64,000 bases of DNA, taken from contig NBAY01000077.1 of the NCBI GenBank assembly GCA_002794775.1, forward strand, positions 1 to 64,000, written 5' to 3'. Positions 7,601 through 61,515 of the stretch are shown piece after piece. The notes beneath the pieces were generated by a model. The model was not told the origin of the DNA, did no database searches, and was given only the letters and a program-made list of their open reading frames with translations. Source of the DNA: Porodaedalea pini (lineage: Eukaryota > Basidiomycota > Agaricomycetes > Hymenochaetales > Hymenochaetaceae). Both the position numbers and the translations under genes were made by a program. How positions within the stretch are numbered: position 1 is the first letter of the stretch; each line of letters opens with the position of its first letter.

Positions 7601-8253
7601 GAAGAATTTGCAAAGCATATCAAGGAGACTCATCGCGTTGCAAAGGACAACTTGGTCAAGGCGGCGGATGACATGAAGCGCTACCATGACCAGACAGCAG
7701 GGACTTCGGTGGAGTACAAGGCTGGAGACAAGGTTTTCCTCGACGGATGCAAACATCAGCACAGATTCACCGATGAAGAAACTCACTGACAAATGGTATG
7801 GTCCCTTCAAGATCATTGACAAGGTGGGAGCTAGTGCATACAAACTCAGGCTCCCCAAGTGATGGAAAAAGGTCCACCCGGTCTTCAACGAGGCCCTGCT
7901 AAAGCCCACCATCGAACCATCCTTCGAGAGCCAGAAACAACCAGCACCGCCGCCGCCTGACATTGTCGACAATGAGGAGGAGTACGAGATCGAGGAAGTT
8001 CTAGACTCGCGTCTGCACCGAGGGAAGCTACAGTACCTTGTCAAGTGGGTTGGCTACAACGAACTGACTTGGCAGCCCGAGATGGACTTTGGTGAAAACG
8101 CAAAGGAGGCGATCGCTGAATTCTATCGAAAACACCCCAGCACCCCTTGAAAACTCGACATTCCTCGCCAACGACTTCGCCCACACTTCGTCAACACCGA
8201 ACCAGACGACCTCGATCTTGGTTGGTCAGGACGCCCAACCTTGAAGGGGGGGT
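4629..8253 (+). pseudogene. Pol of chromovirus 1 (PR-RT-RNaseH-IN-chromodomain), degenerate
   Basis: Protease spans about 4664-5128, where the active-site triad reads D-S-W in place of D-S-G (near 4888). Reverse transcriptase runs about 5510-6240 with YLDD intact (near 5861). Then come RNase H, an integrase HHCC zinc-binding region (HDLVLAGHPG to CDRCQ, 6896-7020), an integrase core (VDLIGE, IHDRG, QTECVNQE; about 7100-7400) and a chromodomain (EEYEIEEVLDSRLHRGKLQY, 7978-8140). In-frame stops include TGA at about 5126, 5360, 5496, 6239, 6404, 6557, 7021, 7860 and 8149, most where Arg CGA is expected. The stretch 6044-6794 is almost identical to chromovirus 3, including its stops. The protein could not be made. 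Confidence 0.9.
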
Positions 8254-13915: not shown

Positions 13916-15220
13916 TCAGAGGATCTGGAGTACACGTCTTGACGTGTCGATATGCTCCTCAATGGTTTCCGAGAGGATCAGGATGTCATCGAGGTATACA
14001 ATGATCAGGTTAGCGTAGATCAGGTCCTTGAAGATGTGGTTGACAAAAGCCTGGAATGTGGCCGGCGCATTGCAAAGGCCAAAGAACATGACCGTCGGTT
14101 CAAAGAGGCCCATGTTCGTGCGAAACGCTGCTTTCCATTCGTCACCCTCACGGATCCGGATATTGTAGTACCCCCAGCGAAGGTCAAGCTTAGTGATGTA
14201 CTTCGCTTTCTTGACCTTGTCGACAAGTTCGTCGATGAGAGGGAGGGGATACTTGTTCTTGATTGTACCATCATTGAGCTTACGGTAATCCTGGATTGGG
14301 CGTAGCGATTTGTCGGCTTTCTTAATGAAGAAGAAAGGTGACGCCATGGGCGATATCGATTGTCGGATGTGACCAGACTTCAAGTTCTCGTCGAGGAAGT
14401 CCTTGAGTGACTGTTGCTCCGTTGGCGTGAGCGGGTAGATCTTACAGTCGCTCGGTTTGAAGTCGGGCTTCAAGTCGATGACATGGTCCCAGGGTCGGTG
14501 TTCTGGCAGCTTCTCGAAGCCTTTTTCGCTGAAAATGTCGGCGTAGTCATTGAGGTATGTGGGCCAGGACGCCTTGTCCATTCGTATCTCACTCACCCTC
14601 CTCATCTGTTCCACCACCTTCTTCACCTTGCCTAGGTCCTCCACTGGCTCCCTCTCGATCGTACATTCCTCTGGACAGCGAGTGAATTCGATCAAACCCG
14701 TTTTCCAGTCGACCTCAGGGTTATGATGTCGAAGCCAGTCGTACCCCAGGAATATGTTTGACGACACTAGGGACGTCACCGCAAGGACAATCCTTTCCTT
14801 GTGGTGGCCAATCATGAGCTCGACGTCAACATATTCTTCAATCAACCCAGCCTCGTTGTGCGTGCCATCGGCGTTGAGTACTGCAAGGGGTCTGATGTAA
14901 CGCCTTGTCTCCAGCCCATACCATTCAACGAACCTCACATCAATGCACGATCCTGTACACCCCGAGTCCACAAGGGCATGCGCATCTACCTCTCTCACTT
15001 CGCCTGCTACGCTGTGTCCGACATTCAGGAGAAGGTCCAGCTGGCATCCGCCAGTTCCTCTCATGAACAGCTGCTTGTACTCCTCATTTTTATTCACACC
15101 GGTGGGGACTTCATAACTGGGAAAACCATCAACGTCGTTGGCGTCTACGTATTGTACAGACGGTTGGTTATATTTTAACAAATCCGGATTCGGAGTCCCT
15201 TGTTCTTCTCGGTCAGTCAC
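13916..15220 (-). CDS. Chromovirus 2 pol, N-terminal part (protease, reverse transcriptase)
   Basis: 434 codons. Aspartic protease active site D85-S-G (ALVDSGCTG). Reverse transcriptase fingers/palm follow, with [20 protein letters not shown] and the catalytic Y-L-D-D at residues 409-412. The frame ends at TGA 13918-13916 within RVLQIL*ENSLYLKPEKC. The codon is CGA (Arg) in related copies, so this is one nonsense change within a single gag-pol polyprotein. Pol lies in the -1 frame relative to gag, whose stop is at 15231-15229, which suggests -1 frameshifting or re-initiation. Confidence 0.93.
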
Positions 15221-15228
15221 CCCGATGG

Positions 15229-16551
15229 CTACGCCTGACCACTCGCAAAATCCTGCAAGTCAATGACCTCTTTGTCATTGTCTTCTTCCTCCCCATATTC
15301 CTCCACGGTTGACCTTCGAGTGTCTACGACTTCCTCGAATGCCAATTCCTTCATTGCGCCGAGTTCATCAGCAAGGACATGACGTTCGCCTGGCACCATC
15401 AGTTCCAGCATGCGCTGGATGATTGGTTTCGCCTGTGGGCACTTGTCCTTAAAGTGGCCCAGCCCACCGCAGATCCAGCACGCACATCGTCGTTGCGCCT
15501 CGTTCATCAAGACGTCCATCGGTTGACCAGCGCCTCCAAAGGTGATGCCGGTCGTGTCACACTTGTCAACGTGTGGGGCTGCTATCTGTCGGCGTGCAGG
15601 AGGCCCTTGTTGGGGCGTTGGGCGGGGCGTGAATGGCAATGTCCTGCCTCGTTGGATTGCGCGAATCTGTTGTTCACCCTGGTCGATCTCAACAGCTTTC
15701 TTCTTCCACGCTTCATACGTTGTTGGCACAGGCGTCGACCTCAACACACCACAGACCACCTCGATGTTCATCGCGTGCTTCAGACGGTCGCAGATGACGC
15801 TGTCGTCCTTCAGCTCCACTGCCTTGATGATCACATCGAGATCCTGGAAGAACTCGTTGGCAGAGAGATCCTTCTGGATCTTGTCTCGGAACTTCTTCAA
15901 CGCCTTCTCCTTCCTGTTCGGGTCATCGAAGGAGGCATCCAGTCGTTCCTGAAACTTGGTCCAGTCATCCGTGAAGCTCACAACGCCACTCGTTGTGAAT
16001 TCCTGGACGTAGTTTTGCGCCCACGTTGACGCGTTGCCACCCTTGAGGTAAGAGAGGGCAACATAGATTTTGCTCGACGATGAGGGGTACCTCATGGGGT
16101 TCGCTGAGACAAAGAGAAGGACTTCGCGCTTGAAGTTGAGGTAGTCATCGCCGCCAGCGAATTCGTGTGGCCGGGCGACGTCAATTGAGGGAGCTGGGGC
16201 TTGGGCCGTAGGGGCATTTGTTGCCGCACGGGTGAAGGCAGCCGCTACGATCGCCGCGATCTCCTGTTGCTGCCTTTGGGTAAAGCCCTCTGACATCGCT
16301 GGTACGGGCGTGTGCATTAGGCGTTCAGGGGGCGTCGGCGGCGACGAGTCTCTGCGGGGCATTCGGTACCCTCCTGGTTCACTGGGAAGGATGACCGACG
16401 ATGTCGAAACGGTAGGGGACGATGGGGTGCGAGGGGTTCGAGGCGCCCACCGAGTTCTTTCGCCTGATGGGTCAGTTGAGTACCAGGTGTGTCTAATGTC
16501 ACTCCACCAGAGGTTATGGGTGATGTGGTTTCTATCGTCGGCTACGTACAA
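15229..16551 (-). CDS. Chromovirus 2 gag
   Basis: 440 codons from Met 16551, with similarity extending upstream to about 16620 (IDLTEEQQWALP) across an in-frame TGA near 16560 (DTE*QLYVADD). A Pro/Ser-rich N-terminal part is followed by a retrotransposon capsid domain at about residues 125-285 ([44 protein letters not shown]). A CCHC knuckle lies at C358-C361-H366-C371. Gag packages the RNA in cytoplasmic particles. Fragments of the same gag occur at 3237-4628, 32360-32709 and 45753-46131. Confidence 0.93.
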
Positions 16552-16993
16552 CTGTCATTCGGTGTCGTAGCGCGACAAATGAGGGAGAGCCCACTGCTGT
16601 TCCTCAGTAAGATCTATGTTGACTAGACCGGAGGGGGAACGGGGAGGGGCTGGTTGTCCGGATGAACGTTACGCTGGCGAAGGACAGGTTCGTCGGCGAA
16701 TTTGATGACCAAACGGAAGGAGGCGGCTGAGATTACAATCGATGATGACGTCGACGACTGTACACGGTATGTTACCCATGTCCAGGTCAGATGGTTCCTC
16801 CACCAAAGAGAAAGATGGAGGGCCAGGGTGGGATAGGATTACTTAATACACAAACATTCGAAAACGCCCGGGCAGGGTTGAGGGTTGTCATTCAGGGGGT
16901 TTGCACGTCAAGTCCGTCAAGGGGAGTGCTCCTCTAGACCGAGTGAAGGCGAGTCGACAGCGACGACGTATGCTGGGGATGAGCCTGGGTGAG

Positions 16994-32359: not shown

Positions 32360-32709
32360 ATGAGATTCCAGGAACACCTGGACGCATCATTCGACGACCC
32401 AAACCAGAAGGAGAAGGCACTAGCAAAGTTCCGAATGAAGGTTCAGAAGGACCTCACCGCTGACGAGTTCTTCCAGGACCTCGATGTCATCATCACAAGA
32501 GTGGGGCTGACAGACGACAGCATCATCTGTGACCGTCTAAAGCATGCAATGAACATCGAGGTGGTACGAGGAGTGCTGAGGTCGACGCCGGTCCCAACAA
32601 CATATGATGCCTGGAAAAAGAAGGCCATCGAGATCGACTGAGGTGAGCAACAAATCTGGGCAATCCAGTGAGGTCGCACATTCCCACTTCCACCGCACCA
32701 GCAGCAGCA
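32360..32709 (+). pseudogene. Chromovirus gag fragment
   Basis: [23 protein letters not shown] and [20 protein letters not shown] align with residues 199-283 of chromovirus 2 gag. Stops at about 32639 (EID*GEQQ) and 32669 (IQ*GRTF). It is cut on the left by the giant element LTR and on the right by the fold-back element, with no LTR of its own. Confidence 0.9.
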
Positions 32710-32889
32710 ACTTGAGGTAGTGGGCCATTGGGATGGCAAGCTACGATTACTGTTTTCTGTGTCCTTTATTTTATACGAGAGAACTAAAGCTTGAAAATTA
32801 TACTAAAACATTATACTTATTAATGAATTATTCATTATTCAGTAAACAGTAATCGTAGCTTGCCATCCCAATGGCCCACTACCTCAAGT
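32710..32889. mobile_element. 180-bp fold-back element with perfect 46-bp inverted arms
   Basis: 32710-32755 (ACTTGAGGTAGTGGGCCATT...) is the exact reverse complement of 32844-32889. The AT-rich core is 88 bp. Within the arms, TACGATTACTGTTT/AAACAGTAATCGTA begins and ends with TA, so a smaller Tc1/mariner-like MITE of 116 bp (32742-32857) could be nested inside flanking arms. No flanking duplication was found for the larger unit. It separates a gag fragment from an RPB1 fragment. Confidence 0.7.
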
Positions 32890-33225
32890 ACCATCCTCAC
32901 CATACACGAATTGAATCAGGTCACCCAGTGAGTTTCGGACAGTCCTGTCGTAGCAGACAGCCACATCTTTGAGTGCCTTTACAAGTCGACGTTGAGTGTA
33001 ACCAGTCTTGGCCATCTTGACAGCGCGCCTCGGGTTGAAGTCATCCTTTGTAAAGTGAGGTAGTGTGCGATGCCTGAAGCCAGACAGGATTCGCTTCCCT
33101 TCAACGGACTGCTGACCAACACAGATGGATGTCTGCGAAATGTTAATGAATGAACCCTTCGAACCCACGACAACCATCTCTTTGACATTGTTGTCATCCT
33201 TCAGGTTCTTCTCTGTGTATTGACC
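32890..33225 (-). pseudogene. RPB1: Second captured fragment of RPB1 (RNA polymerase II largest subunit)
   Basis: Reads [38 protein letters not shown], then [19 protein letters not shown] and [14 protein letters not shown], all RPB1 core residues, and aligns to 40784-41210. Relative to that copy, an in-frame 93-bp segment is missing (the part encoding the FVENSYLRG to EGLID stretch) at a GCG microhomology. It lacks the 1-bp deletion seen near 41063, so neither copy derives from the other in its present form. Ends are sharp: the fold-back element on one side, GTAAACTCAGTAATCGTAA on the other. Confidence 0.9.
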
Positions 33226-33244
33226 GTAAACTCAGTAATCGTAA
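33226..33244. repeat. 19-bp breakpoint motif, third copy
   Basis: GTAAACTCAGTAATCGTAA, identical to 1032-1050 and 45732-45750. Here it directly abuts the broken RPB1 fragment. Confidence 0.8.
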
Positions 33245-33627
33245 TGCAAAGGATATTGGTAAAATAGGAAAGAACAATTAAAATCCATCATTCATAAACT
33301 GGTAGACTTACACATGCAGTGTAGTTACAAGTTCAAGTTCTCTATAAATTACAACAACAGGACTCATACAGGTGTAGTACATTCCCAGGCTGGCTGGAAT
33401 CACATACATAATATTATCCGAACAAAGAATAATAGGAACAAAAAGCACACACTTAGAGGCCAATTTACGAACAAATGTTCCATCCAAGTGAAACACAAGT
33501 AAAAACTTGAGTACAGTTCAAGGAATGGAGGCAAGGAAACAGGGAATTGAAGGTGCCTAAGTCATATGAGCTAAAGCACCAGCAATGCAAAAGCCACATA
33601 CCAGACATCAGTCACAATAATGGATCG
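33245..33627. other. Non-coding spacer
   Basis: AT-rich sequence with no gene or repeat that I can support. It may hold the 3' end signals of the minus-strand gene at 33628-34736. Confidence 0.4.
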
Positions 33628-34736
33628 CTAAGCTGATGCTGTGCTGGTCGCGATCAATTTGTGATAGGTAAGCGGTGAAGTGTCTGGTGTCATATCTTCA
33701 TCTGTCGCATCTTCGTCCATCACGTCTTCGTCCACTGCATCTTCATCCATCGCGTTTTCGTCCATCGCATCTTCATCTATCGCACGTCCGTAATTACAAG
33801 CTTCGGCAAGATAACGAACGGGATAAGAAGGTTTGAGATCACGAATCCTCCTGACGAGAATGTCAAGCTTCTTCATCAATTCTACGGAGAGACCGGTACA
33901 CCATAAACCTTGCATCGCAATCACGTGCTCAACATGCGCCATGACCTTATCATCGCCCTGTTGTGCGTATTTACGAAATGGTGCAAAAATCAGCAACGAC
34001 AAGGTCTCCTGTGATATATCATCATTCGGGAAGACCTGATGGGCGTGCTCTAGGAGAGTGAAGCGATCCTCTGCATCTTTGGTCTCTAGGTTGCTTAACT
34101 TCAGGCCAAGGGCTACGTTTTCCACATCATTCGCCCACTTCTCCAACTGCTGACAGAAACGATTCGATAACGATCTCAACTCTAGCAACCCCATCTTGTG
34201 TTTTGATTCTTCATCGCATTCCAAGAGTTCCCAAAGCTTCCACGTGAGTTCCCTGGGACTGATGTCTCCGTGGGAATCTTTCACCTCATCAATGTTGTAA
34301 TCGTGATTTGTCTCTGCATGGAGACTCGTAAGCATCTGGCGGCTCTGAGATGAACGAGATGTCACAAAACAGTGGACCGCTTCATAGATAGTATGCAATG
34401 CCTGCTTGATTTCTGTCAGCTTTAGCTCCATTGCGCTACCTCGAAATACCTGGGAATTGATATATATGAAACCCGTTCTTATGTTGAGAAAAAAGAAACA
34501 ACACCTACAGTATTTAAATAGGCCTCAAATCCGTTCGCCATAGCCACCTGATCACGAAGATTCTCCTCCTCTTGAGTTACTTGATGCAAATCAAGTATGT
34601 ATTGTTGGGTTTGAATTTCCACAACGTCCCTTAAGCGTCCCAGGGTGTCCGAAAGAGCTCCGTCTCGGTGAGCGTCCTTTTCCTTTGCTTCTTGATGTGC
34701 TGCCACTCCACCTTCAGATTCAATAGACGTTCCCAT
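33628..34736 (-). CDS. Uncharacterised acidic-tailed protein, two exons, intact
   Basis: Exon 34736-34509 (76 codons, MGTSIESEGGVAAHQ) and exon 34449-33628 join across an intron with GTAGGT donor and TTCCCAG acceptor, phase 0, giving 349 aa with no stop. The N-terminal third is Gln/Glu-rich (EIQTQQYILDLHQVTQEEENL) and probably coiled coil. The middle is helical and Leu-rich. The C-terminus has a degenerate repeat of A-x-DED-AMDE type (residues about 305-330), strongly acidic. No domain recognised. One of the few undamaged genes here, in tandem with the gene at 35207-36456. Confidence 0.6.
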
Positions 34737-35206
34737 ATAGTGGTCTGATCATCCATGTCAGAGTGTGGGCACTATAAAGCAGAGCTGAGCAACATCACCT
34801 GCTCAATGGGCAGTGGCCAGTCTGGCAAGGTCCAGATGAAGCGCACTCATCACACCTGGCACTAGATCACGCTGGTCAGCAACAAAACGAATAAACAGCA
34901 GTTCAGTCACTGCTTACACTTGTGTGGCAAAATTGGTGTAGAGGGTGTAACATCAGACGACATTGGTGATGTGGAGATGATATAGTTGGGAGACAAAGGC
35001 ACCTCACATGAACCCCATTTCTCCTTGGGGCTTTATATGCCTGGTTAGATACATTTTCTTTCATTCATCTGACTAATTAATCCCACAGTGCCGAACCTAC
35101 TGGTCAGGGTCGGCAAACTTAGCGCAGAGTACAGGAGCACAGGAACGATACACAAATGATACAAAGGTTATTTTCTAATTATCCATCGCCTGGCTGCTAC
35201 CCTTAT
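34737..35206. other. Intergenic region between two tandem genes
   Basis: No reading frame or repeat of note. It would contain the promoter of the 34736 gene and the 3' region of the 35207 gene, both on the minus strand. Confidence 0.4.
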
Positions 35207-36456
35207 CTATGTGCCTTCGCTTCCACTCTGTGACGTGCTTGCAATAGGCCGTTTTGAAGAGCCAGGAGGTGACTCATCAGAAAGACAGCGCTTTTGGGGC
35301 GATCCCTGCTGGGATGAACTGGGTGCAGAAGGTGCAGTCTGTAGAGAAATCGGCACTACCTCAGGAGTCATGAATTTTGGTGAAACCAATGCAGATACGT
35401 TCCCCTTCTTCTTCTTCTGACCCTTTATACGCTGCCTGTCAAGTTTCGTGACGTCAAAATAGTCTTCTTGGTCGTTTTCTGTATTCGTGTACCAATCCTC
35501 AAAGTGTTTGGCCATATCCTGGAGACTAATTTTGTGTGCTTCGGTTATGGTTATGCTGCTTGTAACATAAACCATTCCTGCTGTAACATCTTTGTAACTC
35601 TTTGGATGAGCAGCTTTATTCCCGACATCTCAGATGGTGTTCTTCGAGATCATCACAAAATTTGCCAGTATCGATGCACTCTGTTCCCCTTTCGGGAAAA
35701 CTGTGAGGAACCGGTTTAGGGCAGTCTGCTGCACCTCCCATACAGAACGGTTAGCTGGATCGACCTTCTTTCCCTCATTCTGCTGTTGGTCCATTTCATT
35801 CAGTAGGCTGGTAACGGTGATCCAAGCTTCAGTTGCCTCTTTTAGGAACTCCATCATTACTTCCATCAGCGACGGGTCATCGCCTTCGGTGACTTTACCG
35901 AGTGCAACAAGCAAGGTGGCCACGCGATTGGCCAAGGTTGATAGCACCACCTCCCCATGGTGGTTGATGGATTCCTTGATAAGCAGGAGGCGTTCATCAC
36001 TATCCTTTGTTACTAGGGGTTCTTTGTCGTAGGTTTTTTCTATGGCGACAGCACAGGCTGCCTCGTACGTCATCCTCCGACATTTGTCGAGTACGGATCG
36101 ACAACCGATCTGATACCTTTTTGTGAGGTCCTAGGAAGAGATAGGTAATGATAAATCACTGCAATTATTCAAAAATATATAACCGGGCTGGGACTCACAT
36201 CATTAACAAGGTCATAAAGTTTGTGGACCTGGTCGTCAAGGGATTTGCTGATGCTCGATATATTTGCAGACTGATTGAGCAGCAATTTCCGATCCGATTG
36301 TATGTTGACCAGCACATGATGAAGGTGCTGGACCACATCAAGGAACTTTGTAGAAAAATCTACCACGCCTTCATCCTGCAACCTATTCTTGTAGTTTATT
36401 GCCGCCCAGACAAGCTCGTTGTAGTTCGCCACCCACTGCGGTGACGTCTCTGCCAT
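35207..36456 (-). CDS. Uncharacterised helical protein, two exons, one in-frame TGA
   Basis: Exon 36456-36199 (MAETSPQWVANYNELVW) and exon 36130-35207 join across a GTGAGT...TTCCTAG intron to about 393 codons. TGA at 35632-35630 (ISKNTI*DVGNK) breaks the frame and would be Arg if CGA. Alternatively the protein stops there at about 252 aa. Residues before the stop are mainly helical with Leu/Val spacing. The tail (KGQKKKKGN, then Ser/Pro-rich SAPSSSQQGSP and SKRPI) looks disordered and nuclear-targeting. No family recognised. Confidence 0.5.
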
Positions 36457-36940
36457 AAAGCTAGTTCAACATTTAGTGCAATAGATAACATTTTTTGCTT
36501 ACCATCAAAATTGTGGAGGGCGAGCCTAGTATACACTGACAAAATGAGTCAATTATTGGTGTCAAATGCACAAGCCACTTACAAGCCGAGTCCTCAACCA
36601 TGTGTCCTGACATTGTGGCAGTTGAAGATGAACGACGATGGACACCTATTGATCTTCTCATGGGCACGAGAAGACAGCTCACTAAGCTGAACTCTATGTA
36701 TGTACAAATTAGGAAATTCATAATTGACTCCTGCTGTGCCTCCACCTGATCCATGGTAGGGTCTCGACCCGTCATGTACACACTGGGGAGCTGTCAGTGA
36801 TGACTCATGGTGATTTCTTCCTCCAGAAGCATTTTCTACTTGCATGGTTTGGAGGACAATGATATTCGCATCTGCTTGCACTTGTCTAGTACCAACATCA
36901 GGAAAACAGCAAAAACCCATAGTTGGCTATAGTGGTATAT
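36457..36940 (-). other. Possible upstream exon region, unsupported
   Basis: Overlapping open stretches exist on the minus strand (36781-36473, 36920-36594), but no splice model joined them convincingly to the gene at 36456. No function suggested. Confidence 0.25.
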
Positions 36941-36965
36941 AGTTATATAGCAGGGTATAGCATGC

Positions 36966-37150
36966 CATAGTCATGTAAAGTTGCATAGCACATAGTGATA
37001 GAGTACTATAAAGTACATATAGTTTTATATAGCTCATAGCCTCTCATAGTCATGTAAAGTTGTATAGCACATAGTGATAGAGCACTGTATAGTATATATA
37101 GCTTTATATAGCTCATAGCCTCTCATAGTCACATAAAGCTGCATAGTGTA
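36966..37150. repeat. 79-bp AT-rich tandem repeat, about 2.3 units
   Basis: Units start at 36966, 37045 and 37124 with CATAGTCA(T/C), a spacing of exactly 79 bp. Each contains CATAGTGATAGAG and TTTATATAGCTCATAGCCTCT. Similar TATAG-rich motifs extend to about 37230. Such arrays occur near ends of fungal DNA transposons, but I see no termini. Confidence 0.75.
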
Positions 37151-37461
37151 GAGCTATGTAGAGACCATAGACCCTCATAGTTCTATAAAGTTACATATTA
37201 TTTAGCAGTTTAGTATCCATAGTCACATATATATCAGAGTAGCACCCATCTAATTGTTACGCTTGCAGCGAATGTCGGGGTGTTGCGTAACAGTACTCTG
37301 CCAGCAGCCAACTTTGTCCGTAAATGCTAGATTGGTCGAACGTTCTAATCTGCACTTTGTATTGAACATCAATTATACAGCATCATGTACTGCATCATTT
37401 TTTTAATCCCGAGGTGACTGAGATGGCATGTAGAACTACTAAAATGAGTGAAAACATCAAT

Positions 37462-38400
37462 TCATGTGGCATCCCCGGCCGCTGCCCTTGCTCTCTTTTT
37501 CTTCTTTTTCTTGTTCTCTAACTCCCCGCCTTCTAATCCCTTTTTTGTCGCTCTTGAACTATCATCACCCAAGGCACTAAAGGGCCGCTTCGCTCCGTTA
37601 CTCTGAAGCGTCTTCCGAGGCTCCATATCAGAATTTTCTGGCATCACTGCCAAAGCCGTACTCAATAAAACATTTGCTTCCTGCAGGACGTTCCCGTTTC
37701 CGTTGCTTTGTGATCGTGTGTCGTCCTTAGCGGGTGGTCCAACGACCGCAGATGAAACTTCGGTTTCCTTCAGAGCTACTGCAGAAGGCTGACTGAGCGG
37801 CATTATGAGAGTCGGTTCTGACAGAATAGCTCTGTACGTTTTGCGAGGTTCTGTGGAGGATAGATGAGTATCATCGGAGGGAACAGTCAGGTCTGACGCG
37901 ACTCACGAGCACGTAAGAGTAATGCTTTTGGCGTCGTCGTTGCTGCATCATGTACAAGATTTTGTGCAAGTCCAAGAAGCGCGACCCTGGAGCCGCACTT
38001 TGTCAAATCACATAAAATGAATAAAAACAACACACGCACAAGTTTCCGACATCCCGGGGCGCACGGAGATACTGGTCGGTATCCACGCCTCCACTCACAA
38101 TCAGGCCCTTGCCCTTGCCCTTGGTGACGCGAGTGAGCTCGCGCGCAGCAGCACACCAGTTCCTCCGGTTGTTATCTCCTTGCAAAGCGCCGGTGTAATT
38201 TATCTCGAACACGGCGACATTCTTGATGGCAGTGCGGGCCAGCGTGTGTTTCAGACGAAAGGGGAGCCGAGGAGCACTGAGGGGAAGGGATATGATGCGG
38301 ACAGTTAGAGGAGAAGGCTGCGTGTGAGTAAGGCAGGCATTTTGCGAGGCAAGTTTGGCTAGTTGGGTGAAGCGCGAGAATGTCGTATGACGAGAGCAGC
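37462..38400 (-). pseudogene. RPP1: 3' half of RPP1 (RNase P/MRP p30 subunit), captured
   Basis: Minus-strand reading gives CLTHTQPSPLTVRIISLPL, KHTLARTAIKNVAVFEINYT, CAAARELTRVTKGKG, LRAPRDVGN, then across an intron (donor GTGCGT at about 38047, acceptor CCAG at about 37989) VALLGLAQNLVHDA and LLLRA. A second intron (GTGAGTCG...CCACAG) leads to RKTYRAILSEPTLIMPL and a Lys-rich tail (ENKKKKKKRARAA), stop 37464-37462. These are the C-terminal features of the RNase P/MRP protein that processes tRNA and rRNA precursors in the nucleolus. The first ~100 residues are missing; sequence upstream is PRP8. Remarkably, the fragment itself is open and keeps its native stop. Confidence 0.85.
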
Positions 38401-40027
38401 GACGCGTTACCAGTTCGCTTCCTTCCTCTTCATTGAATATTCCGACCAAACACGAGCCGATTCTAAAAACTCCGCTTCCCAAGGTTGAAGATATCGATAC
38501 AAGTTGGGAATGAGCTGCTCATCCTCATGGGTCATACCAGCGTGGAAGTGAGTTACTGTATTTGAAGGCATGAGTTACAGTTATCGTCAGAAATGCTTCA
38601 GTAAGGAGATATACACACCTCCCACATCGGTCTGCTTGGACCATCGGAGATCGCTCTGAGAAATAAGCACATGACCCATAGACAACATTCCAAGACCACC
38701 GAGTTCCTATACGACAACAGTTCAGCGAGACGTGATATACAAAAGAGTTGCGATGTTTACTTTGGGGGTGTAGAAGACGACCGGAGGGAAACACGAAGGC
38801 ATCTTACTGTTCAAGCCAATCTTGACACGAGTCTGAATTTTGTTCTCAGCCTTCACCAAAGCATCAAGCAACTCGTTTGTGTAGATGACAGCCTCCTGAT
38901 AATAAGTCATCAGACCAATGATCGCAGTGTTCCATTTGTTGACAATCTCGGAAAAGGTGGTAGAGCCTGAGCTCATGCGGACCTGGCGTATACGATTGTT
39001 AAACTGTTGAACACCTATGAAATTCCTCAGCATTACATATTCCATGGCAGCTTTAAAACTCTTACCTTCGTCGGAGACGCAGAAAAAGGCTTGTGCATTA
39101 CGCTCCTTCGACTGCTCGTTGGTCAAATTCCACACCCCGTCCTTGAGCGAGAACTGCTCTCCACTCATCGTCCGAATCTTCGGCAGAACGCGCACCTCGA
39201 AGCCGCTCATCGAGAAGAGTAGCTGAGGGTTGTTTTTGGAGTAGACACTAACAAACGTATCTTCCCATTCAATCGTCGTCAAAGAACGAGGCAGGCTCTG
39301 CTTCACCTTCCAGAACACATCTCGACCTAGATTGATGTCGTGCTTAATCAGGCGCATACGGCAATCCTGCGGCTAACATCTCCTGTTGTTATACCCAATA
39401 ACGTTGTTGTTTGTCGGATCCAGATTCGCGCTGAGGTAACGTTGTATAAGGTCGCGTGATTCCTCGGCGGTAAAGCGGAATAAAATATGCAAACGATCAA
39501 CATAACGAGAATAAAGACGGACTGGATGGCGAGTCTCGGTCGCAGAATCACGTTACTGCAGGAGATTGTTGGGCAGTTGTGGGGGAGCCGCCATTTCACT
39601 TGCGCGTTGCAAGCCGAGGATGAGAAGATCGAGGACAAGACCATAGTATTGGAAGACAAAGGCAGAGAACTGCAGACCGCGGATCATCACGTATGTGTTC
39701 GTATGTGCCATATCTTTGTAGGTGAGAACACAGTTATTCTTCGCTGTGATATAGTCCACAAGATTATGATCGAGAATACGACGAAGCAGACGGCTGAGAA
39801 GGGTGAGTTCAATCTTTTCGTAGACTTTCGAAAGTACGGTCTCCATCGTCACTACGCATTCGCCCTCGCTCGTCACCCAGATGTCCGTCAAGTTATTGAT
39901 ACCCTGGCAACAGTTGTACACCAGAAGGGGAGGAGGTTCAGTGTCCGCGCCTGTCAGCCTCAAAGAATAAGAACTGGTCAAGATATGTGTCTGTAATCTT
40001 CTCAACGGGTTCGATGTCGTAGCAAAG
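38401..40027 (-). pseudogene. PRP8: Internal fragment of PRP8 (spliceosomal U5 core protein), captured
   Basis: Reads [16 protein letters not shown], then [98 protein letters not shown] and [13 protein letters not shown], in the order found in PRP8, the U5 snRNP protein at the spliceosome active site. A deletion after FFEADRR shifts the frame (39950 region). TAA follows NNLLQ (39553 region) and TAG follows NNRRC (39380 region). At least one intron is retained near 38660-38730. Both ends of the gene are missing: the upstream neighbour is RPB1 and the downstream neighbour RPP1, all in one orientation. Confidence 0.93.
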
Positions 40028-42126
<2,099 letters not shown>

Positions 42127-45063
42127 CCTCGCCGGAGAAGACTTCTTCTCATCAACTGCAGGGGACTTCTTCGTTGCTGTCTTCTTCCCTTCAGCTGCTG
42201 CTACAGATTCAGTTGATCGAATTAAATTCGCCGACGGTAACTTTTAAATGACGGACGTCTTGTTCGCTGTTGTTTTCTTAGATACTGTAGTAATGGACGA
42301 CACCTTCCACGTGCGTGATGCCGCGTTTACCGTACTAATTGGCGCCGCACTCGTTTCAGAGACGCGACGCGGCCGTCCTTTCGGTAGCGCAGGCGCAGGC
42401 GTTTTAGGAGATCTTGAGGTTCCAGTGCTGCGGATCGAGGTCGTTGACGTGGTCGAGACTTTCCTCGACCAAGTAACAGAGTCCCGCGGAGTCATATTCT
42501 CGCGAGGCGTCTTGAACGTAGACTCACGTGTTGAAGCCCCGCTCCTGCTGCTGGACATTGACACATTTGAGAGCGAGGATGTCGGTCGCGAGGGCGGATG
42601 AGGTGGACGGAGAGTACCTTGCTGGCCTGCAGTGGCGGCATTTCTGCGGATAGTCGATGCATGTGAACGAGTAGATGAAACAGAGGCGGCGACAGATTTT
42701 GGTCTTTGCACGGAGACGACATTTGGGAGTTTTACACTCGTAACACTCACGGCGTCACCTGCGTCTTTCCCAGTTGTGTGTGGAGAGCGAGAAGCTACAC
42801 CGGGCCATCGAGAAACCACGGAAGATGATGCGGTAGAGTGCGCAAGGGACGAGGTCGAGCCCTTTAGTCGCGGGCCTTCTTGTTCGTCACCCTCTCCATC
42901 CACGTCCATACCTGAAGTGTACGAGAGTGCACTCTGCGCCCCATGGACGCTTGGACTCGTACTACGCGGGGTGGACGGCGCAAACTTCGAGTCTGGCCGG
43001 CTTACGCTCACGCTCCGTCACAGTCGTAAGACACGATGACGTTCGGCTGGTCGTCGACGCAACGCTGCGCGCTATGCTTCGGACAGATGCGCTAGACGAG
43101 GTGACAGCTGCATTCCCGCGAGCAAGGTTCTTGTTCAGCACGCTCGTACGAAGAGAATGTGACGTGCTCATGCTATCGCGCTCAGTGGTGTCTTCGACCC
43201 TGCTGAGAGTAGGGCGAAAGTCTGCTCGCATAAGCGGCCCACGCACCGTGTTGGAGTTGCTCGTCGTTGGCGTTAGAAATTGATCTCTGTAGATCGTTAT
43301 TAGCAAAGTCCTTTTCCTTGAGAAGCTCGGACATACCATCGCTGGTCTCCTTGATCGCCCAACTTTCCAGTGCATCGAAGCCACCCTCGTTCCGGATACC
43401 GACCCAGCGCCTTCGAAGCAGATTCATACGAGTCTGTTCAACTTGCATACGGATGTGGGAAATGCTTGATAAGAGGGTCTCCCTTGGTTCCGTAGGGTGC
43501 TGACGGAGAAGAATTGCGGAAACGAGAGTCTGCGAAGGAATGAGCACAACAATAAACCCGATTATATTTTAATACTCACCTGATAGAGCATGCCAGCATT
43601 CGACTCCGCCATACCCCTCCGCACAGCCTCCATAACCCACTCAACGCGCTCCCCATCCTCAAACCGTCCTAGCGCATCATTCTCCATAATCTCAACCCAC
43701 TCGCGCGCTCATTGAAACACTTCTTCGCCTCGTTGCAAAGCAGCGCATCCACAAACCCCCTTGCTCTCATAACCATTTCTCTCACACCCTCTACCCAGGC
43801 TTCGCGCACAGAGTTGAGCTTCGCTAAAGCCGCATGCCCAGCGAAGAGCAAAGGAAACGCATGCTGAGGGAGGACACACTTCTTCAGGCCGGTCATCAAC
43901 CCGTCTTTCGTCTTCTGCGGGAGTGCAGCGAAGTCCGGCGAGCACCAGCCCTCTCCGAAAAGACAAACAAGGGCGCGCTGCGCGCCGTGCTCAAGGTATG
44001 TGTTCTGCACGTCTGGACGCACGGAAAACACGAGCATACGCGGTGCGCGACGTGCACACTGGCGGTAGCGACACCCACCTGTGCCCCAGCGACCTCCAGT
44101 GATACGTTCATACTCAGAAATTTCGAGGAAAGCATGGAAGAGCCCATGGAGCATCTCCTGCACGAGGCGTGCCTGCACATTGTCATGGAGCGTTTGTGAT
44201 TGAAGATAGTTCGCGGAGCACAGAATAGCGAAGGTGGTGTCCAAGCCATATGAATGGTTGCTGAAGCTGAGCGTGCCGGTGTATGAGCATCCTAAGGTAA
44301 ACTGCAGTGCTGGAGGAGTGAAGGGAGGCCAGGGAAGGCGAAGGGTCGTGAGCTCGCCGGGGGGAGGGGTATTCTTGAGACCATAGGTGATGAGCTGATC
44401 GTAGAAATACGGCGCACGCGTAACAAGAACGAATCGATGCGAGCAGAAGACGGCGGTCGTCTCTTCTTCATTGGAAGGAGCACCTATTGTTGGCATATCG
44501 CTGTGTAATTCAATGCGAGCATCAGAATACAGACGAGACCTCCACATGAAGACAAGGTCCTTCCGAAGCTTGTCGACGCGCGCCTCTTCCACATCGGCGT
44601 CGCCTTCCGGGCCCTTCTCGGTCGCATTGAACAAAAACTCAAGTGCATCCCCAAATCCCTTTCCTGTTTAGAGCTACTCGAGCTCATTGGCGAATAACGC
44701 GGGATTATGGTTGAGAGATATGCGCGTGAGGGAGCCGATTACAGAGAGCGCAGAGGAGATAGGCCGGAACTGGGAAGTGAAGTGGAGCGCATGGAAGCCG
44801 GGTAGGGGAACTCAACGCCAAGGTTGAAAGAGAGTGCAGATGTCGTCGGCATTGGAAGAGACGGTGTCGGAGAAGCAGCGAAAGGAAGTAGGGACGCGAT
44901 AGGTGCTGGGCGGAATGAGAAATAGCGTGCTCGGAAACTTGGTGGTGCACGAGCATAAATGATAGCTAGTGTCTGTTAGTCTCAAGGACAGGTGATAGGT
45001 TCTGCGCTTGTGCTCACCTTTATGTCCCCAAACCTCCGAGTCCGCGTTGCTGCCTTCGTCCAT
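42127..45063 (-). pseudogene. BTB/POZ-domain protein gene fused at its 3' end to RPB1
   Basis: Starts MDEGSNADSEVWGHK at 45063, with a first intron beginning GTGAGCACAAG. The main open stretch 44634-43669 contains a BTB-like domain (FMWRSRLYSDARIELHSD, FCSHRFVLVTRAPYFYDQLI, TLGCSYTGTLSF). Continuation pieces at 43547-43182 and 43011-42244 contain RRRWVGIRNEGGFDALESW and a long Ser/Thr-rich, basic tail. A TAA at 42246-42244 interrupts the Lys-rich end. The frame then continues (KKTATKKSPAVDEKKSSPAR) straight into RPB1 sequence at 42126. Other stops and frame changes exist between 44634 and 44956. BTB domains mediate dimerisation or cullin binding; the specific role is unknown. A second copy lies at 1-506. 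Confidence 0.75.
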
Positions 45064-45321
45064 CGCGTCCTCATCCAGTAGATCCCAGATGACGTCTGGG
45101 AAGCTATCTATCGTGCGATGAAAGAGCGATTGGAGGTCCTCTTGCCATGATGTCGTCGACCTCTTCGTTGCCTCGAGCAGTGCGTGTGGGCAGGCAGGCA
45201 GCTATGACGAGACGGCTACCATGAGAAGCAGTGATGTAGTGTGATTTTAAAAAAAGCAGAGCAAGCCCGAGAGAAAAGTGAAGGAGACAAATCAGAGTGT
45301 GCCTCCTGCTGAGGATCACAT
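45064..45321. other. Upstream region of BTB gene copy
   Basis: Not shared with the copy at 507-640. No gene recognised. It may hold the original BTB promoter. Confidence 0.35.
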
Positions 45322-45752
45322 GAGGGAGTGAAGCGAGTGTCTTTGCTGCAGCGAAACAGACTCGTCGACGACATGCCTCCCGCTGGTTGGAGATCACATG
45401 TTGGCACTGTCGTCAACTTTGCTTTCAACCGATTTTTAATTCAACCGGGCCACTTTATTTTACAAAAAATACATAGGCAGATAGATAATTGTCTGAAGTT
45501 TTTTTACATGGTTCAAGCTTGAGATTTGGATGGTTGCATAAAATTAAATATGTCAATGAAGAAAGTGAGCACTGTACAGCCACAAAAGCTGTGAGTCGGT
45601 CCATAGCCACCGCTCAATTTAGCAGAAAAGGGGTCCAAAATTAACATATATGGTATGCCATCAGCTTATAAAAGCTGACAAAAACCCAAATCGGGCTCCC
45701 TAACTTTGCCCACAACAAAAGACGATACTTCGTAAACTCAGTAATCGTAACA
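45322..45752. repeat. Duplicated non-coding block, copy 2 (partner 641-1052)
   Basis: Aligns to 641-1052 and ends at the same GTAAACTCAGTAATCGTAAC. It contains an extra segment of about 25 bp near 45350. The chromovirus 3 fragment starts immediately after. Confidence 0.7.
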
Positions 45753-48700
45753 GGCACCCCCAGCTCGCCGTCAGATCACAGCCCCCCACGTCAACAAATG
45801 TGATGCGACTGGCATCACTTTCGGAGGTGCCGGCTAGCCGATGGACATCTCAATGAATGAGGTGCAATGCCGACGTGCGTGCTGGATCTGCGGCCAGCTG
45901 GGTCACTTCAAGAACAAGTGCCTGCAAGGACAGGGAATTGTGCAGCATATGCTGCAGATGATGGCGCCTGGCGAACGTCGCCTCCTCACCGACAAGCTAG
46001 GCACAATGAAGGAATCAGCATTCAAGGAAGTCATAGACACTCGAAGGTTGACAGTGGAGGACTATGTGGAAGAGGAGGGAGATGACGAAGAGGTCGTTGA
46101 CTCACAGGGTTTTGCGAGTGGTCAGGTGTAGCCATCAGGGCGACTGACCGAGAAGAACAAGGGACTTCAAATCCAGATCCACTAAAATATAACCAACCAT
46201 CTGTACAATACATAGATACAAACAACGTTGATGGTTTTCCCAATTACAAAGCCCCCACCGGTGTGAACGAGAATAGCGAGTATGAGCAACTGTTCATGAG
46301 GGGAACTGGGGGACGCCAGCTGGACCTCCTCCTGAATGTCGGATGTACAGTGGAGGGTGAAATAAGGGAGGTGGACACGCATGCCCTCATGGATTTGGGG
46401 TGTATGGGATTGTGCATTGATGTGAGGTTCATCGAGCACTATGGGTTGGAAACCAAGTGCTACATCAGACCCCTTGCGGTGCTCAATGCAGATGGCACAC
46501 ACAATGAGGCTGGTCTGATCGAGAGATACGTCAACGTTGAGCTAATGATTGGACATCACAAGGAAAGGATAGTCCTTGCGGTGACATCCCTGGTGTCGTC
46601 AAACATCTTCCTGGGCTACGACTGGCTTCGACGCCACAACCCAGAAGTCGACTGGAAGACGGGTTTGATTGAATTCACCCGCTGTCCAGAAGAATGTGCA
46701 ATCAAGAAGGAGGTTGTGGAAGAGATGAGGAGGGTGAGAGAGGTGTGAATGAACAAGGCGTCCTGGCCTGCATACCTCAATGACTTTGCTGATGTTTTCA
46801 GTGAGAAAGGCTTTAAAAAGCTACCAGAACATCGCCCCTGGGATCACATCATTGACTTGAAACCTGACTTCAAGCCTAGTGACTGCAAGATCTATCCACT
46901 GACACCGATAGAACAGGAGTTGCTGAAGGATTTCCTTGAGGAAAACCTGAAGTCAGGTCGCATACAAAAGTCAATTTCACCGATGGCATCACCCTTCTTC
47001 TTCATCAAGAAGGCTGACAAGTCTCTACACCCGATTCAGGACTACCAGAAGCTTAACGAGGGGACAATCAAGAACAAGTACCCTCTCCCCCTCATCAATG
47101 AACTTGTCGACAAGGTCAAGAAGGTGAAGTTCATCACTAAGCTTGACCTTCACTGGGGATACTACAACGTCCAGATCCGTGAAGGTGATGAGTGGAAGGC
47201 AGCATTCTGCACGAACATGGGTCTCTTCAAACCGACAGTCATGTTCTTCGGTCTTTGCAATGTGCCGGTGACGTTCCAGGCTTTTGTCAACCACATCTTC
47301 AAGGGATTGATCTATGATAACTTGATCATCATCTACCTCGATGACATACTGATTCTCTTGCAAACTCTTGAGGAACATATTGAGACGTCGAGACGCGTCC
47401 TTCAGATCTTGCAAGAGAACGGCCTGTACCTGAAACTGGAGAAGTGTGAGTTCAATGCCAAGGTCGTGAAGTACCTTGGTCACATCATCAGTAATGGCGA
47501 AATCAGGGCTGACCCGGTGAAGACAGAGGCGATCGCAGACTGGCCAGTCCCACGAAACCTCAAACAGCTGCAACAATTCCTCAGCATGGGCAACTGGCTG
47601 CGACAATTCATCAAGGACTACAGCAAGGTAGTCCATCCACTGATGTCGCTGACAGGCAAGAAGGACTGGGTATGGGAGACCGAACAGCAGGAAGTGTTCG
47701 AGGAGTTGAGATGATGTCTCTGCTCACCTCCAGTCCTGGCCATCGCAAACGATGAGGGCCCTTTCCGCATTGAAGCAGACTCATCAAACTTCGCTCTTGG
47801 AGGAGTGTTGTTGCAGAAGCAGGAAGGCAAGTGGAGGGTAGTCGCCTACAGGTCAGAAGCACTCCTGCCGGCGGAATGAAAACTATGAGATCTACAACAA
47901 GGAGATGCTTGCGATCATTTCGGCACTCAAGGAGTGGAGGCAATACCTCCTCAGTGCCCATCACCCTATCGAGATCTGGTCTGATCATGCCAACCTCACC
48001 TACTTCAGGTCGGCACAAAAGCTGAGCTATTGACAAGCTCGCTGGTGGACAGAGCTCGAAGAATTCGACTTCCACCTCGAGCACAAGTCGGGGAAGATGA
48101 TGGGCAAGGCAGACTTACTGTTGTGTAAGGCAGGCTACGACGAGGGCAAGGATGACAATGATGGCATTGTGTTCATCAAGGAGAAGTGGCTGAATCGTGG
48201 AGTGGTGAGGACATTGCGTGATGAGGTGTTGGAACAGAGTGGGTGAAGCGCAGAGGGCACAACACGAGTTGGAGAGGCCGACAGGGATGACGGAGGTCGA
48301 CGGTTTGTGGCAGATGAAGGGCAAGGTATACGTCCCGTCAATGATAAAGGAATCTGTGTTGCAGGAGTGTCACGACTTGGTACTGGCTGGGCATCCAGGA
48401 GCATCAAAAACGGTGGAGCTGGTCCATCGAGACTTCTGGTGGGTGTCGATATTCTCTGACGTCTGAGCGTATGTCCAAGGGTGTGATCACTGTCAGCAAA
48501 CAAAGGCTCTGAGGGCATCGAGGTCAAGGCCACTTCACCCGAACGCAGTCCCTGAAGGTCCTTGGGAAATTGTCACGGTCGATCTCATCAGGGAACTCCC
48601 AGACTCAAAAGGACACAATGCAATCTGCATCTTCATGGATAGATTCTCGAAGCAGATGCATGCAATCCCAACGACAATGAAATTGTCAGTGGAAGATATG

Positions 48701-50176: not shown

Positions 50177-53100
50177 ATCACTAGTCCATTCCTGAGGTGC
50201 AACATGACCAAAGCGGGGAAGGAGATGCGTGCTACGATGTAGTTCTGATATAGGAATAATGCTGTACTCTCTACCGCCATCAAGAGTGAAAGATCTAGAG
50301 ACTCTATACATTCTGTAATTGATGTCTGGCTGTGCAGGAAACTTTGAAAACCATTCAACATAAGCCAAATGTTTAGGTATACTTGCTTGCAGTGTGATGT
50401 CTGGAAACAATGAAGACAGTGCCATTTTCATCAGTGAAAACACAGCACGGACTTGAACAACTCGGAAAGCTATATGCCAGTGATAGAGGTCAGACAAAGT
50501 TAAAAGAAGTAAACCAAAAATCTTTACCTTGAATTTCATTCCCAGCATGAATGCGGGCAAGTGCTGTGTCAAAGCGGCCATGTACTAATCTGCCTTGAGT
50601 GTCATGCCATGCTGGTTTCACATGCATTGAATCCACAGTAGTCGACCCATGAACATCTTCATTCCAGAATTTTATTGTGTGCCAAACTGGGAGGGGTCGG
50701 AATACTATGACTATCTCATCTGCTGCAAGCTCAACAGCCCCTCTCCACAGGTTAGGCTGAGTCTTTGAAACAACATACCAAGCAAGTGCAGTGCAGAAGT
50801 TGATGGCACCATACTCAGCGACAAGAGTGTCAAGCTGGACACCTTTTTGCATAGGATGCTTTGACATTTTAAGATAAAGGTCAGAAGCAAGATTGGGTGA
50901 ACGCCAAGGAGGAGGGGGAGGAGGGTCATCTGAATGCCATGCAATGCTAGTATCAAGTGCAAACACTTTCTCTTTTCGCTCTAGCCAGAGAGTCATCTGT
51001 GGGAGCTCGTCCTTGTGATTTGTGGCCGCATATGCATCTTTCACAAGGTCAATGTGCAACTGCTCCGTGAACTGTGTATTGTAGTTGTCCATAGTTCTTA
51101 GAAGTTTAATACATGCCTCGTAATGTTTCATCCAATGGCATTTAATGAAGTTGAAGTGGTTACGAATGCTGAGATCGATGAAAATATCTTTGTTGTCATG
51201 AAAACAACAGAGCGCATCATGAAGTAGAGATAATGTTTCACTAGTATGGATGGGATACTGTGCAAGGTATGTAAAATCAAGGAGCGCATGCGTTGCATGG
51301 ACAAGTCGAGTAGCTGATCTGTTATCAGGTAGGCGGATGTCGACAAGTAAACCAATGAGAAATTGACACATTTGACTGTGTTCTGTTCCACTGACTCTTG
51401 AGAGCTTTGTGATCCCTCTGTGAAAAACACAGATGCTGTGATTTGGAGGGATGCGTCGGCACTGTGCATCCAGCTCATCTGCACCTATAGCACTTGTTAT
51501 CCAAGAAACAAGATGCTAGATAACACCTTGATATAGTTGGTGGAGAATATCCACTGCGATACAGCAATATACATCAAAATATGGAAGATTGACCCAGAAG
51601 GGATGTTGAATCAGCTTCATGTGCATTTCTGCACATGCTCAGGCATAATTAGATGGATCTTCAGAGTCGAGAATAGCAAGAGCTTCAAGAGCATCATCAA
51701 TGTTGTGGGGTGCATGAGTATGTTCCACACTGGCCCCAAGTTCATCATGTGGACATTGACAAGTTGGGCAATCTCCAGTAATGGTCCCGGTCACTGCAAC
51801 TTGTTCTTGGTTGTCGAGAGCAAGTGCAGCTATGATAGGATGACAATGTCGCTGAAGTCTATCACCACTGATCATGTGGATACCATCGGAGCCAGCTTTC
51901 TCCAATGAACAGAATATAAAATGCAGACATGCGTGCAGGAGGTTGGCGAGTGTGCAACACCGAGCCACTGTAGTGCTCAATTCACGCTTAGGCATCAGCT
52001 GTCCCAGCATACCACCTGCTTTATTTATTATTATATACAGATACAAACCCCATAAACACGGTCAAGCACTTCGTTTCATCACTATATATCTTACACTTCG
52101 CATTTCACATGCTCAAATGGTCACACTCGCCCATTTGAGCATCAATATACCTTTGAAGTTCTCATATTATCCCTTAGTAACCTCATAAATACGTTCGAAT
52201 ACTTTCATACACCCATTCTAACACTCATACCACTTCCTATTCACACTCGAACACTTTGTTTCCTTTATATTCATCCCATATCCCACTATATATGCACTTG
52301 AGGACTCTATCCACTTCATATTCACTTGTTCAAACATTTGTAGCACAGCCGGATCATGCAGTTGGGCTCAGGGAATGCATTGGGTTCCAGCCTGGGTCAC
52401 CCAAACAGTCCTCGGGCCGTCAACGTTCAATGTATCACGCTCAAACGACCGGATTCCATCATTTTCCATGTTCTCCATGTGGCTCGAGCATTATTTATCA
52501 TTGTCTATCACTCCCATGATGTGCATTCGTTGCCATCATGCCCTTGGGGATGTTTGAGGGCATTCAAATGGAGTTGTTCAGAGCACACATGATAAGTTTC
52601 TTGGTTTCATTGGTCTTCTCGTTGATGTCAAACCATTATTCCCCTTCGAGTTCATGATTTATCATGTTCTTGAGTCATTCCATCCCTAACATATGACTAT
52701 TCTGACTCGAACATGCACTGCACACACTTTCCTACCTCCGTATGTACGTTCGACTTCAGTACCGAGCTCGTTTCGCCTACAGTATAAATAGTGCACACCT
52801 TTGTACTTGTTCTGCAGAGGGAATACAGCCCCAGTTCATGCCACAGTACACATTTTGAGTTCCACAAGTCATTTGGACCTTCAGATCATCTCTGCTCAGT
52901 TCTATCAAACTTCCTCAACTGCTTGAACAGCACGTTCGATTCCGCACATATGCTTGAAGCCAATATTCCAAGGGTTCGAATGCCAGACACACCCAACAGG
53001 GTATTGTATCTGCATACGCCCATCACCCCACACATTCACTACTTACTAAAAAGCTGCTCAAGCATATTGGAGTACGCATGAACACTCTCGAGCACGTTTT

Positions 53101-59934: not shown

Positions 59935-61515
59935 GTGTCACGTTCAGGTCGCCCACCGAATAAGTGGATTCTAGCCAGGCTGGAACGTGAAGCCAGAGAA
60001 GCACAGATTCAATCAACAGACTCAGGTGAAGAAGAAACCATTGACCGCATCTTATCATCCAATCCACACAGGTCAGAGGATCTCGACGATCACTCCCCTT
60101 CACCTCCATCTTCAGCAGTCCAAGCCTCGGTATCAGAAGACTCATCAAACTTTCCGTCATCGTTTCCGTCTACAATCTCATCCCCGTTCTCGTTTCTCGG
60201 CTCGAATTTACCGCCGACATCAGCAGAACCATCCACTCCACAGTCCACCTCAGAATCCCGATCCCCGACCGATTCCCAGCAGCCCACCTCGCCGCCAGGA
60301 AGCCCTACTCTTTGTCTATCGCATCTACAGTTTCCTTCATCCAGTCCCGCTGCGGTATTCTCTTCCCCAGTCGTTCTGTCCGTTCTGTCCGATCCGTCCG
60401 TTCTGTCCGATCCGTCCGATCCGTCCGATCCGTCCGTTCCGTCCGATCCGTCCGTTCCGTCCGATCCGTCCGATCCGTCCGATCCGTCTGTTCCGTCCGA
60501 TCCGTCCGTTCCGTCCGATCCGTCCGTTCCGTCCGATCCGTCCGTTCCGTCCGATCCGTCCGTTCCGTCCGATCCGTCCGTTCCGTCCGATCCGTCCGTT
60601 CCGTCCGATCCGTCTGTTCCGCTAGCAGCTCCTTTAGCGTCCGGAACTCTTGCCACTCACCAACGTCTTACCTCATTGTTAACTCCTCAGATCTTACGCT
60701 CGTCCCTCCACACCATCTATCAGCCACCAATGGCGATGAGAGCACCACGACGTGGGCAGTGTGATGCCCCGCACTTCGACGGTTCCAATGCCAGGGACCT
60801 ACCCTGTTACTTCGAGGATATTGAGTTCCTCGCCGATGATCTCAATTGGGATGACGGATCGAAAGCCAAATATGCCAGGTACTACGCCTCGGCAGAAGTC
60901 GCTGAACTCTGGGAAACCTTGGACGAGTTCAAAGCCAACCCAATCGTATGGAACGACATCAAGAAAGCAACCACCGGACTATACCCGAGCCTCGGAGCAG
61001 GACGACGCTACTCCCGTGCCGAGTTCGAGCAAATGGTCGTTGACTGAGCCGAACAAGGGATTCGCTCTCGCGAAGATCTGGGACAGTATAAGCAAGATTT
61101 CATAGTTCGATCTGACTATCTTATCGTGAAAGATAAGCTCACCAAGCCAGAATCCCAGCACGTGTTCCTGAGAGGAATCACTGGCGACTTATGTACAGCG
61201 CTTCTTCGGCGCTTAGAGATCAAGGAGTCCGATCACGAAGAAGGCGACCCCTACAAAATCGAAACTATCATCCAGCACGCCGACTTCATCCTCGGAGGAG
61301 CGTCATTCAGTGGCTCGATGGCTCAGGTGCCACGTACCTCGACTTCCAGCAGCTTGATTACCGTCAAAAAGGAGGAGGTCGATCTCAGCACAGTCATGGA
61401 AACACTCAAGAGCTTCCAAGTCCAGCTCGACGCCATGGGACGAGGATCAGGTACGACTAGAAGCAACACACCAGTCTCGATGTCACCAGCAGCACCTGTA
61501 CCTTTGCAGCCATGA
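59935..61515 (+). pseudogene. Gag of gypsy element D
   Basis: Opens MSRSGRPPNKW (GTG at 59935) for 370 codons to a TGA at 61045-61047 (VVD*AEQG), then continues in the same frame (61048-61515). The Ser/Pro-rich N-terminus holds a (DPSVPS) repeat. The capsid-like part (DAPHFDGSNARDLPCYFEDI) is homologous to the giant element gag. A second TGA at 61513-61515 (PLQP*NPGC) precedes a CCHC knuckle CTFCGELSHFIRSC (about 61528-61569). Both stops are TGA where Arg CGA is plausible. Confidence 0.8.
60376..60623 (+). repeat. Coding minisatellite of CCGTCCGATC/CCGTCCGTTC units
   Basis: About 27 nine-base units alternating GATCCGTCC and GTTCCGTCC encode (DPSVPS)n. Because 9 is a multiple of 3 and the units lack stops, other frames are also open over this stretch. 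Confidence 0.9.

Follow-up and report, generated by a model that had tools for sequence, protein, structure and literature searches.

A chimera of four host genes as the probable cargo of a non-autonomous Helitron2-like element in Porodaedalea pini

The capture of genes by rolling-circle elements is already known. For the three described systems closest to the locus studied here, what follows refers to the sections of each paper that were available. The FoHeli elements of Fusarium oxysporum, of non-canonical Helitron2 type (PMC5148889), carry inverted repeats placed asymmetrically, the one at the 3' side lying about 20-40 bp inside the end, include non-autonomous members and, in some subgroups, have an antisense transposase. 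According to the same sections, Helitron2 elements insert after a T (TTTT|T or C) and Helentrons at TT, and gene capture is of no great importance in FoHeli, with 27 putative events. For the HELPO1 and HELPO2 Helitrons of the basidiomycete Pleurotus ostreatus, the sections of PMC4289320 describe gene-like cargo downstream, canonical 3'-CT(A/T)G ends and intact elements devoid of P. ostreatus gene fragments, and discuss a read-through model. Helraiser/Helibat of bats (PMC4778049) has canonical Helitron1 ends (5'-TC, CTAG-3') and a 3' hairpin terminator, whose bypass takes flanking DNA along to another site; the paper also cites maize for the capture of several genes. The family described below resembles FoHeli in its asymmetric repeats, non-canonical ends, non-autonomous members and antisense enzyme genes, HELPO1/HELPO2 in its downstream gene-like cargo, and Helraiser in its 3' hairpin and apparently displaced flanking DNA. 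Unlike FoHeli, it has end sequences of its own, and its high-copy cargo comes from no fewer than five, and probably six, host genes. Literature searches that covered a minority of the subscription journals were directed at Helitrons with captured RPB1 or PRP8 and at gene capture by Helitron2 in Basidiomycota; judged by title and opening lines of the abstract, none of the papers listed describes this family.

The window, that is the whole stretch of DNA analysed, is 64,000 nucleotides long (C77:1-64000), and the genome searched comprises 53.27 Mb in 201 contigs. The preliminary description had reported pieces of four host genes fused in a single orientation, in the order BTB - RPB1 - PRP8 - RPP1. 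Pfam searches on stop-to-stop pieces confirm this order, with a BTB domain within 43669-44667, RNA_pol_Rpb1 domains 3, 4, 5 and 6 in order from 41960 to 40260, the PRP8 domains RRM_4 and U5_2-snRNA_bdg from 40086 to 38722, and RNase_P_p30 (RPP1) in 38003-38518, all on the minus strand. The span first given, 37462-45063, does take in all four genes, but the mobile unit is larger and extends from 32710 to 45750. No tRNA genes were found in the window. The features of the unit and its flanks are the following:

45751..46503, plus strand: Gypsy gag/pol flank on the 5' side, by homology to Gypsy
32710..45750, minus strand: whole inserted unit, 13,041 bp, with Gypsy gag on both sides
45717..45750, minus strand: 5' terminus, TTACGATTACTGAGTTTACGAAGTATCGTCTTTT
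42127..45250, minus strand: BTB gene piece, its extent toward the 5' end being approximate
40027..42126, minus strand: internal RPB1 piece, domains 3-6, frame broken
38415..40026, minus strand: PRP8 piece (RRM_4, U5_2-snRNA_bdg), frame broken
37242..38414, minus strand: 3' half of RPP1, its stop included, plus some 220 bp of the flank beyond it
36896..37241, minus strand: AT-rich segment (346 bp) containing tandem repeats of 79 bp; the copy on contig C25 has its right end here too
33245..36895, minus strand: repeat B, probable flanking DNA carried along, seen at other loci
33223..33244, minus strand: second, internal 5' terminus of about 21 nt, belonging to a 535-bp mini-element (33244-32710)
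32890..33226, minus strand: second, shorter RPB1 piece inside the mini-element
32710..32889, minus strand: 180-bp foldback at the 3' end, from the fold of the L025 copy and a genome search
32363..32709, plus strand: Gypsy gag flank on the 3' side, by homology to Gypsy

The three joints, which had been set near 42126, 40027 and 38405, were correctly placed, since the match to an intact-looking RPB1 locus (L023) ends at 42126 and 40027 and that to the apparent RPP1 donor (L040) starts at 38414. Twenty regions were retrieved, and exclusion of L022 (the other half of the C25 copy) and of the donors L023 and L040 left 17 loci. The BTB/RPB1 joint is crossed in all 17 of these non-donor loci, the RPB1/PRP8 joint in 9 and the PRP8/RPP1 joint in one, the C25 copy, which is 99.4% identical to the window over 5,967 columns spanning all three joints. 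Although the region is highly repetitive, which could favour false joins in the assembly, this recurrence at independent loci leaves an artefact with practically no probability, and the preliminary description had already remarked that three independent false joins would be required. Genome searches gave at least 44 rows for the RPB1 piece, at least 56 for the PRP8 piece and at least 70 for the BTB piece, split copies and donors counted, these being lower bounds as 40 candidates were scored per search. A functional fusion gene built from four host genes would agree with the single orientation of all parts, but it is extremely improbable given the stops and frameshifts that disrupt the reading frames of the RPB1 and PRP8 pieces. 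Among the 17 RPB1 copies, 13 frameshifting indels are common to at least two copies and 12 are single, and the common ones indicate that already-broken copies were being copied. Introns are retained, as established for RPB1 by alignment to L023 and judged by eye for PRP8, and retroprocessing is therefore rejected, as it had been from the outset.

Alignment of the fragments to donor-like loci, envisaged in the preliminary description, showed for both RPB1 and RPP1 that the donor-like locus extends beyond the captured part. The RPB1 locus L023, on contig C5, has domain 1 upstream and domains 3-7 in one open frame of 1207 aa, domain 7 and a weak match to the C-terminal repeat lying downstream of the captured part; it is 93.5% identical to window 42126-40027, the match stopping at both joints. 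RNase_P_p30 occurs at three genomic places, namely the RPP1 locus L040 on contig C71, the window copy and C25. L040 matches window 38414-37242 at 93.2%, and its RNase_P_p30 match is longer (81-197 of 214) than that of the window (109-197). Our guess for the PRP8 donor is C12:645994-649381, which is 93% identical to the window piece and has PROCN rows adjoining; it is outscored by four further PROCN rows, of which three lie on C3 and one on C196, each containing 5 to 11 stops. For BTB, the locus that we would guess to be the donor from its identity is C15:21299-24451 (93%, the others except C25 reaching at most 91%). PROCN, a PRP8 domain outside the piece present in the window, gave 116 rows genome-wide, which means that larger PRP8 pieces are amplified in other family members.

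The joints are nested in a way that orders the lineages. The RPB1 piece ends at L023 position 5812 where PRP8 follows, at position 5926 in L032-L035 and L037, where NOT1 follows, and at about position 6106 in L036, L039 and L041, where a CAP-Gly gene follows. Pfam detected NOT1 (CNOT1) domains in L033 and L037 and also in L024, there after PRP8, while the CAP-Gly match in L036 lies under the Pfam cut-off (23.7 versus 26.5 bits). The captures appear to have been stepwise and on the 3' side, with BTB-RPB1 earliest, then PRP8, NOT1 or the CAP-Gly gene depending on the lineage, and RPP1 latest. The 5' part is old and retained, and the 3' part was swapped out several times, the family having sampled at least five and probably six host genes.

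The copies share common outer ends, which the preliminary description had proposed to look for in the genome. The 34-nt 5' end has 107 genomic matches with at most three mismatches, and its reversed control has none; eleven 5' ends, that of the window unit among them, start with TTACGATTACTGAG and lie behind different left flanks. The two foldback arms gave 95 and 97 matches (192 in all), with none for the control, and the foldback terminates lineages with unrelated preceding sequence (L024/L025 and L036/L041). The two ends have in common an inverted repeat of 11 nt, set 1 nt in from the 5' end and 32 nt in from the 3' end; 11 of 20,000 shuffles reach as much. The 180-bp foldback, as folded in the L025 copy, gives z -13.5 (0/200 shuffles), and the terminal 42 nt at the 3' end give z -2.6 (3/200 shuffles). 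A hairpin at the 5' end is not significant (z -0.57, 42/200 shuffles folding equally well), which we do not regard as decisive because the available sections of PMC5148889 attribute a hairpin at each end to some of the Helitron2 elements. The ends were paired among 100 of the 107 5' ends and 100 of the 192 arms, the latter grouped into 73 foldbacks. A foldback is found within 15 kb downstream of 57 of the 100 listed 5' ends, and the distance is 7-8 kb for 23 of the listed ends, with recurring lengths such as 7,720, 7,907 and 6,210. It is found within 15 kb upstream, the wrong side, for 23 of the 100, which counts against a Helitron2-like reading. This position, closing lineages that are otherwise unrelated just before it, and the downstream bias argue against the foldback being an independent MITE, though part of the foldbacks may stand alone. 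CpG-site C-to-T or G-to-A changes make up 44 of the 52 mismatches in 39 listed variant 5' ends, as expected for methylation-linked decay. Another copy of the 5' terminus lies at window 1017-1050 (minus strand), near the left end of the contig, where window 673-1052 matches 45374-45752 at 94%.

The unit is inserted in a Gypsy element, whose gag homology breaks off at 45751 and picks up again at 32709. Once joined, the flanks align across the join, as an empty site would, to two other Gypsy copies of the window (293 columns, 79.5%, 2 gap positions; 296 columns, 75.7%, 5 gap positions), and from this continuity the length of the unit is 13,041 bp. Position 36896, where many repeats stop, had been considered as its right end and is ruled out by the Gypsy flank at 32709. 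No target duplication was seen at the site of the window unit, one T being common to both ends and ambiguous between element and target, nor at that of the L025 copy, inserted within the RPB1 piece of another copy; both sites have an empty-site relative. With this T assigned to the target, the two sites read T|T and T|C, with no run of T. The window holds at least three Gypsy-type copies (3189-7789, 11603-16554 and 46101-47714), the one at 46101 being split by the 13-kb unit. It also contains an 18-bp tandem array (13.6 copies, 60378-60621) in an ORF judged by eye to be similar to a retroelement gag, and an ORF (50490-51515, minus strand) with a DUF6830 match just under the Pfam cut-off, possibly part of another DNA transposon.

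Downstream of the AT-rich segment, the unit contains repeat B, in which none of the four ORFs tested gave a Pfam match, and the mini-element, made up in order of its 5' terminus of about 21 nt, the short RPB1 piece and the foldback. The apparent sharp start of repeat B at 36896 turned out to be produced by the query. In L041 a different sequence lies upstream of the point corresponding to 36895, and at C42 and C75 another 5' terminus comes immediately after repeat B. At C42 the order is element, B, element, all on one strand, the same kind of order with other elements. The C25 copy ends at 36896 too, beside different DNA, and its left border (window 45364) adjoins a 68-bp imperfect inverted duplication (L022:2400-2600). 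Its right end differs from the foldback and it has no canonical 5' end, both of which count against a Helitron2-like reading.

The three components, repeat B, four-gene element and mini-element, could each have entered the Gypsy element in separate events, and the C25 copy, which ends at 36896, suggests that the four-gene element could have moved independently of B. The 13-kb unit, however, is bordered precisely by a 5' terminus on one side and a 3' foldback on the other, with one Gypsy gag on either side and B absent outside, so that we find separate entries rather unlikely. Most simply, the four-gene element would have lain in B upstream of the mini-element, and one replication would have overrun its own end to the mini-element's foldback; a flank of 3.65 kb plus the mini-element in the window copy is as predicted by terminator read-through. 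Concerning the element class, the preliminary description had left the choice between Helitron- and Pack-type capture. The ends, the foldback, the lack of duplication, the introns and the Rep/helicase linkage described below fit the former and not the latter. In favour of a cut-and-paste DNA transposon, bounded by terminal inverted repeats, as the capturing element, one may point to the foldback arms, which are long inverted repeats, and to some foldbacks at places with no listed 5' end nearby; yet the outer ends are unlike each other and have in common only the offset 11-nt repeat, and target duplication is absent at the two sites with an empty relative, which makes this mode of capture unlikely. 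Canonical Helitron1 ends (5'-TC, 3'-CTRR, insertion between A and T) are absent, the ends reading TTACG... and ...CTCAAGT. Two Helitron2-type traits are present, namely the inverted repeat in its asymmetric placement, terminal on the 5' side and internal on the 3' side, and the hairpin at the 3' end; the 5' hairpin, which is not universal among members, is absent. As no 5' hairpin was found and the target shows no clear run of T, we file the family as Helitron2-like rather than as proven Helitron2. We consider it quite probable, from sequence features, that the chimera is the cargo of a non-autonomous Helitron2-like rolling-circle element.

A genome profile search gave no Rep or PIF1 rows within the window unit, and 10 Helitron_like_N and 14 PIF1 rows genome-wide, grouped into 13 clusters. 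At nine of the 13 clusters, one of the listed 5' ends lies in antisense on the helicase side, at a distance of 8.3-16.0 kb, and in eight of these nine a PRP8 PROCN domain lies in between on the strand of the 5' end. As a control, the sense arrangement has a 5' end within 16 kb at one of the 13 clusters, C62:204020, which has one in both arrangements and counts against a Helitron2-like reading. The clusters with no listed antisense 5' end are C77, C105, C5:73439 and C59. The last two, which lack Rep, may be host PIF1 genes; that C77 and C105 have none listed within 16 kb in antisense also counts against this reading. Among the matches listed, a foldback lies on the Rep side within 0.9 kb at both C79 and C77 and 3.6 kb away at C62, and none lies within 4 kb past the Rep side for C54, C5, C37, C128, C159, C156, C62:248181 and C105. 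Both ends, Rep and helicase coincide by coordinates at C79:17099-29591 (12.5 kb), which we therefore propose as a candidate helper, with one stop in its Rep stretch.

In the mechanism that we propose, rolling-circle replication would begin at the fixed 5' terminus and normally halt at the 3' foldback. A missed stop, or a switch of template, would cause other DNA to be carried along and the 3' part to be replaced, the 5' part being kept. Repeated rounds could have led from BTB-RPB1, with its one ancestral joint, to BTB-RPB1-PRP8 and then to BTB-RPB1-PRP8-RPP1 ending in the AT-rich segment. At the source locus, the four-gene element would have lain within repeat B, upstream of the mini-element; one round would have overrun its own end and 3.65 kb of B until the foldback of the mini-element halted it, and the resulting 13 kb would have inserted after a T in Gypsy gag. 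The enzyme would be supplied in trans by relatives with antisense Rep/helicase between the same kind of ends.

PRP8, RPB1, NOT1 and RPP1 are essential genes. A speculative and improbable idea, which we put forward for testing, is that the retained pieces of this essential RNA machinery shield the family from silencing, because silencing aimed at the element would hit single-copy, indispensable host genes and so be restrained. The CpG-type decay of the 5' ends (44/52 mismatches) mildly counts against full escape from silencing, and no precedent for such a shield was found among the titles and abstract starts of the papers listed. If the idea were true, the 8 of 13 Rep/helicase clusters with a PRP8 domain adjoining in antisense would be shielded helpers.

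In their available sections, the two fungal Helitron papers (PMC4289320, PMC5148889) report little host gene capture. Here, nested lineages with stacked host gene pieces coexist in one genome with donor-like RPB1 and RPP1 loci. What is new is a Helitron2-like family in a fungus, in which several host genes were captured step by step and one product looks like the result of read-through. Since the sequence displays the order of capture, the joints and this apparent product together with the terminator downstream of it, the read-through and template-switch models become directly testable in this family.
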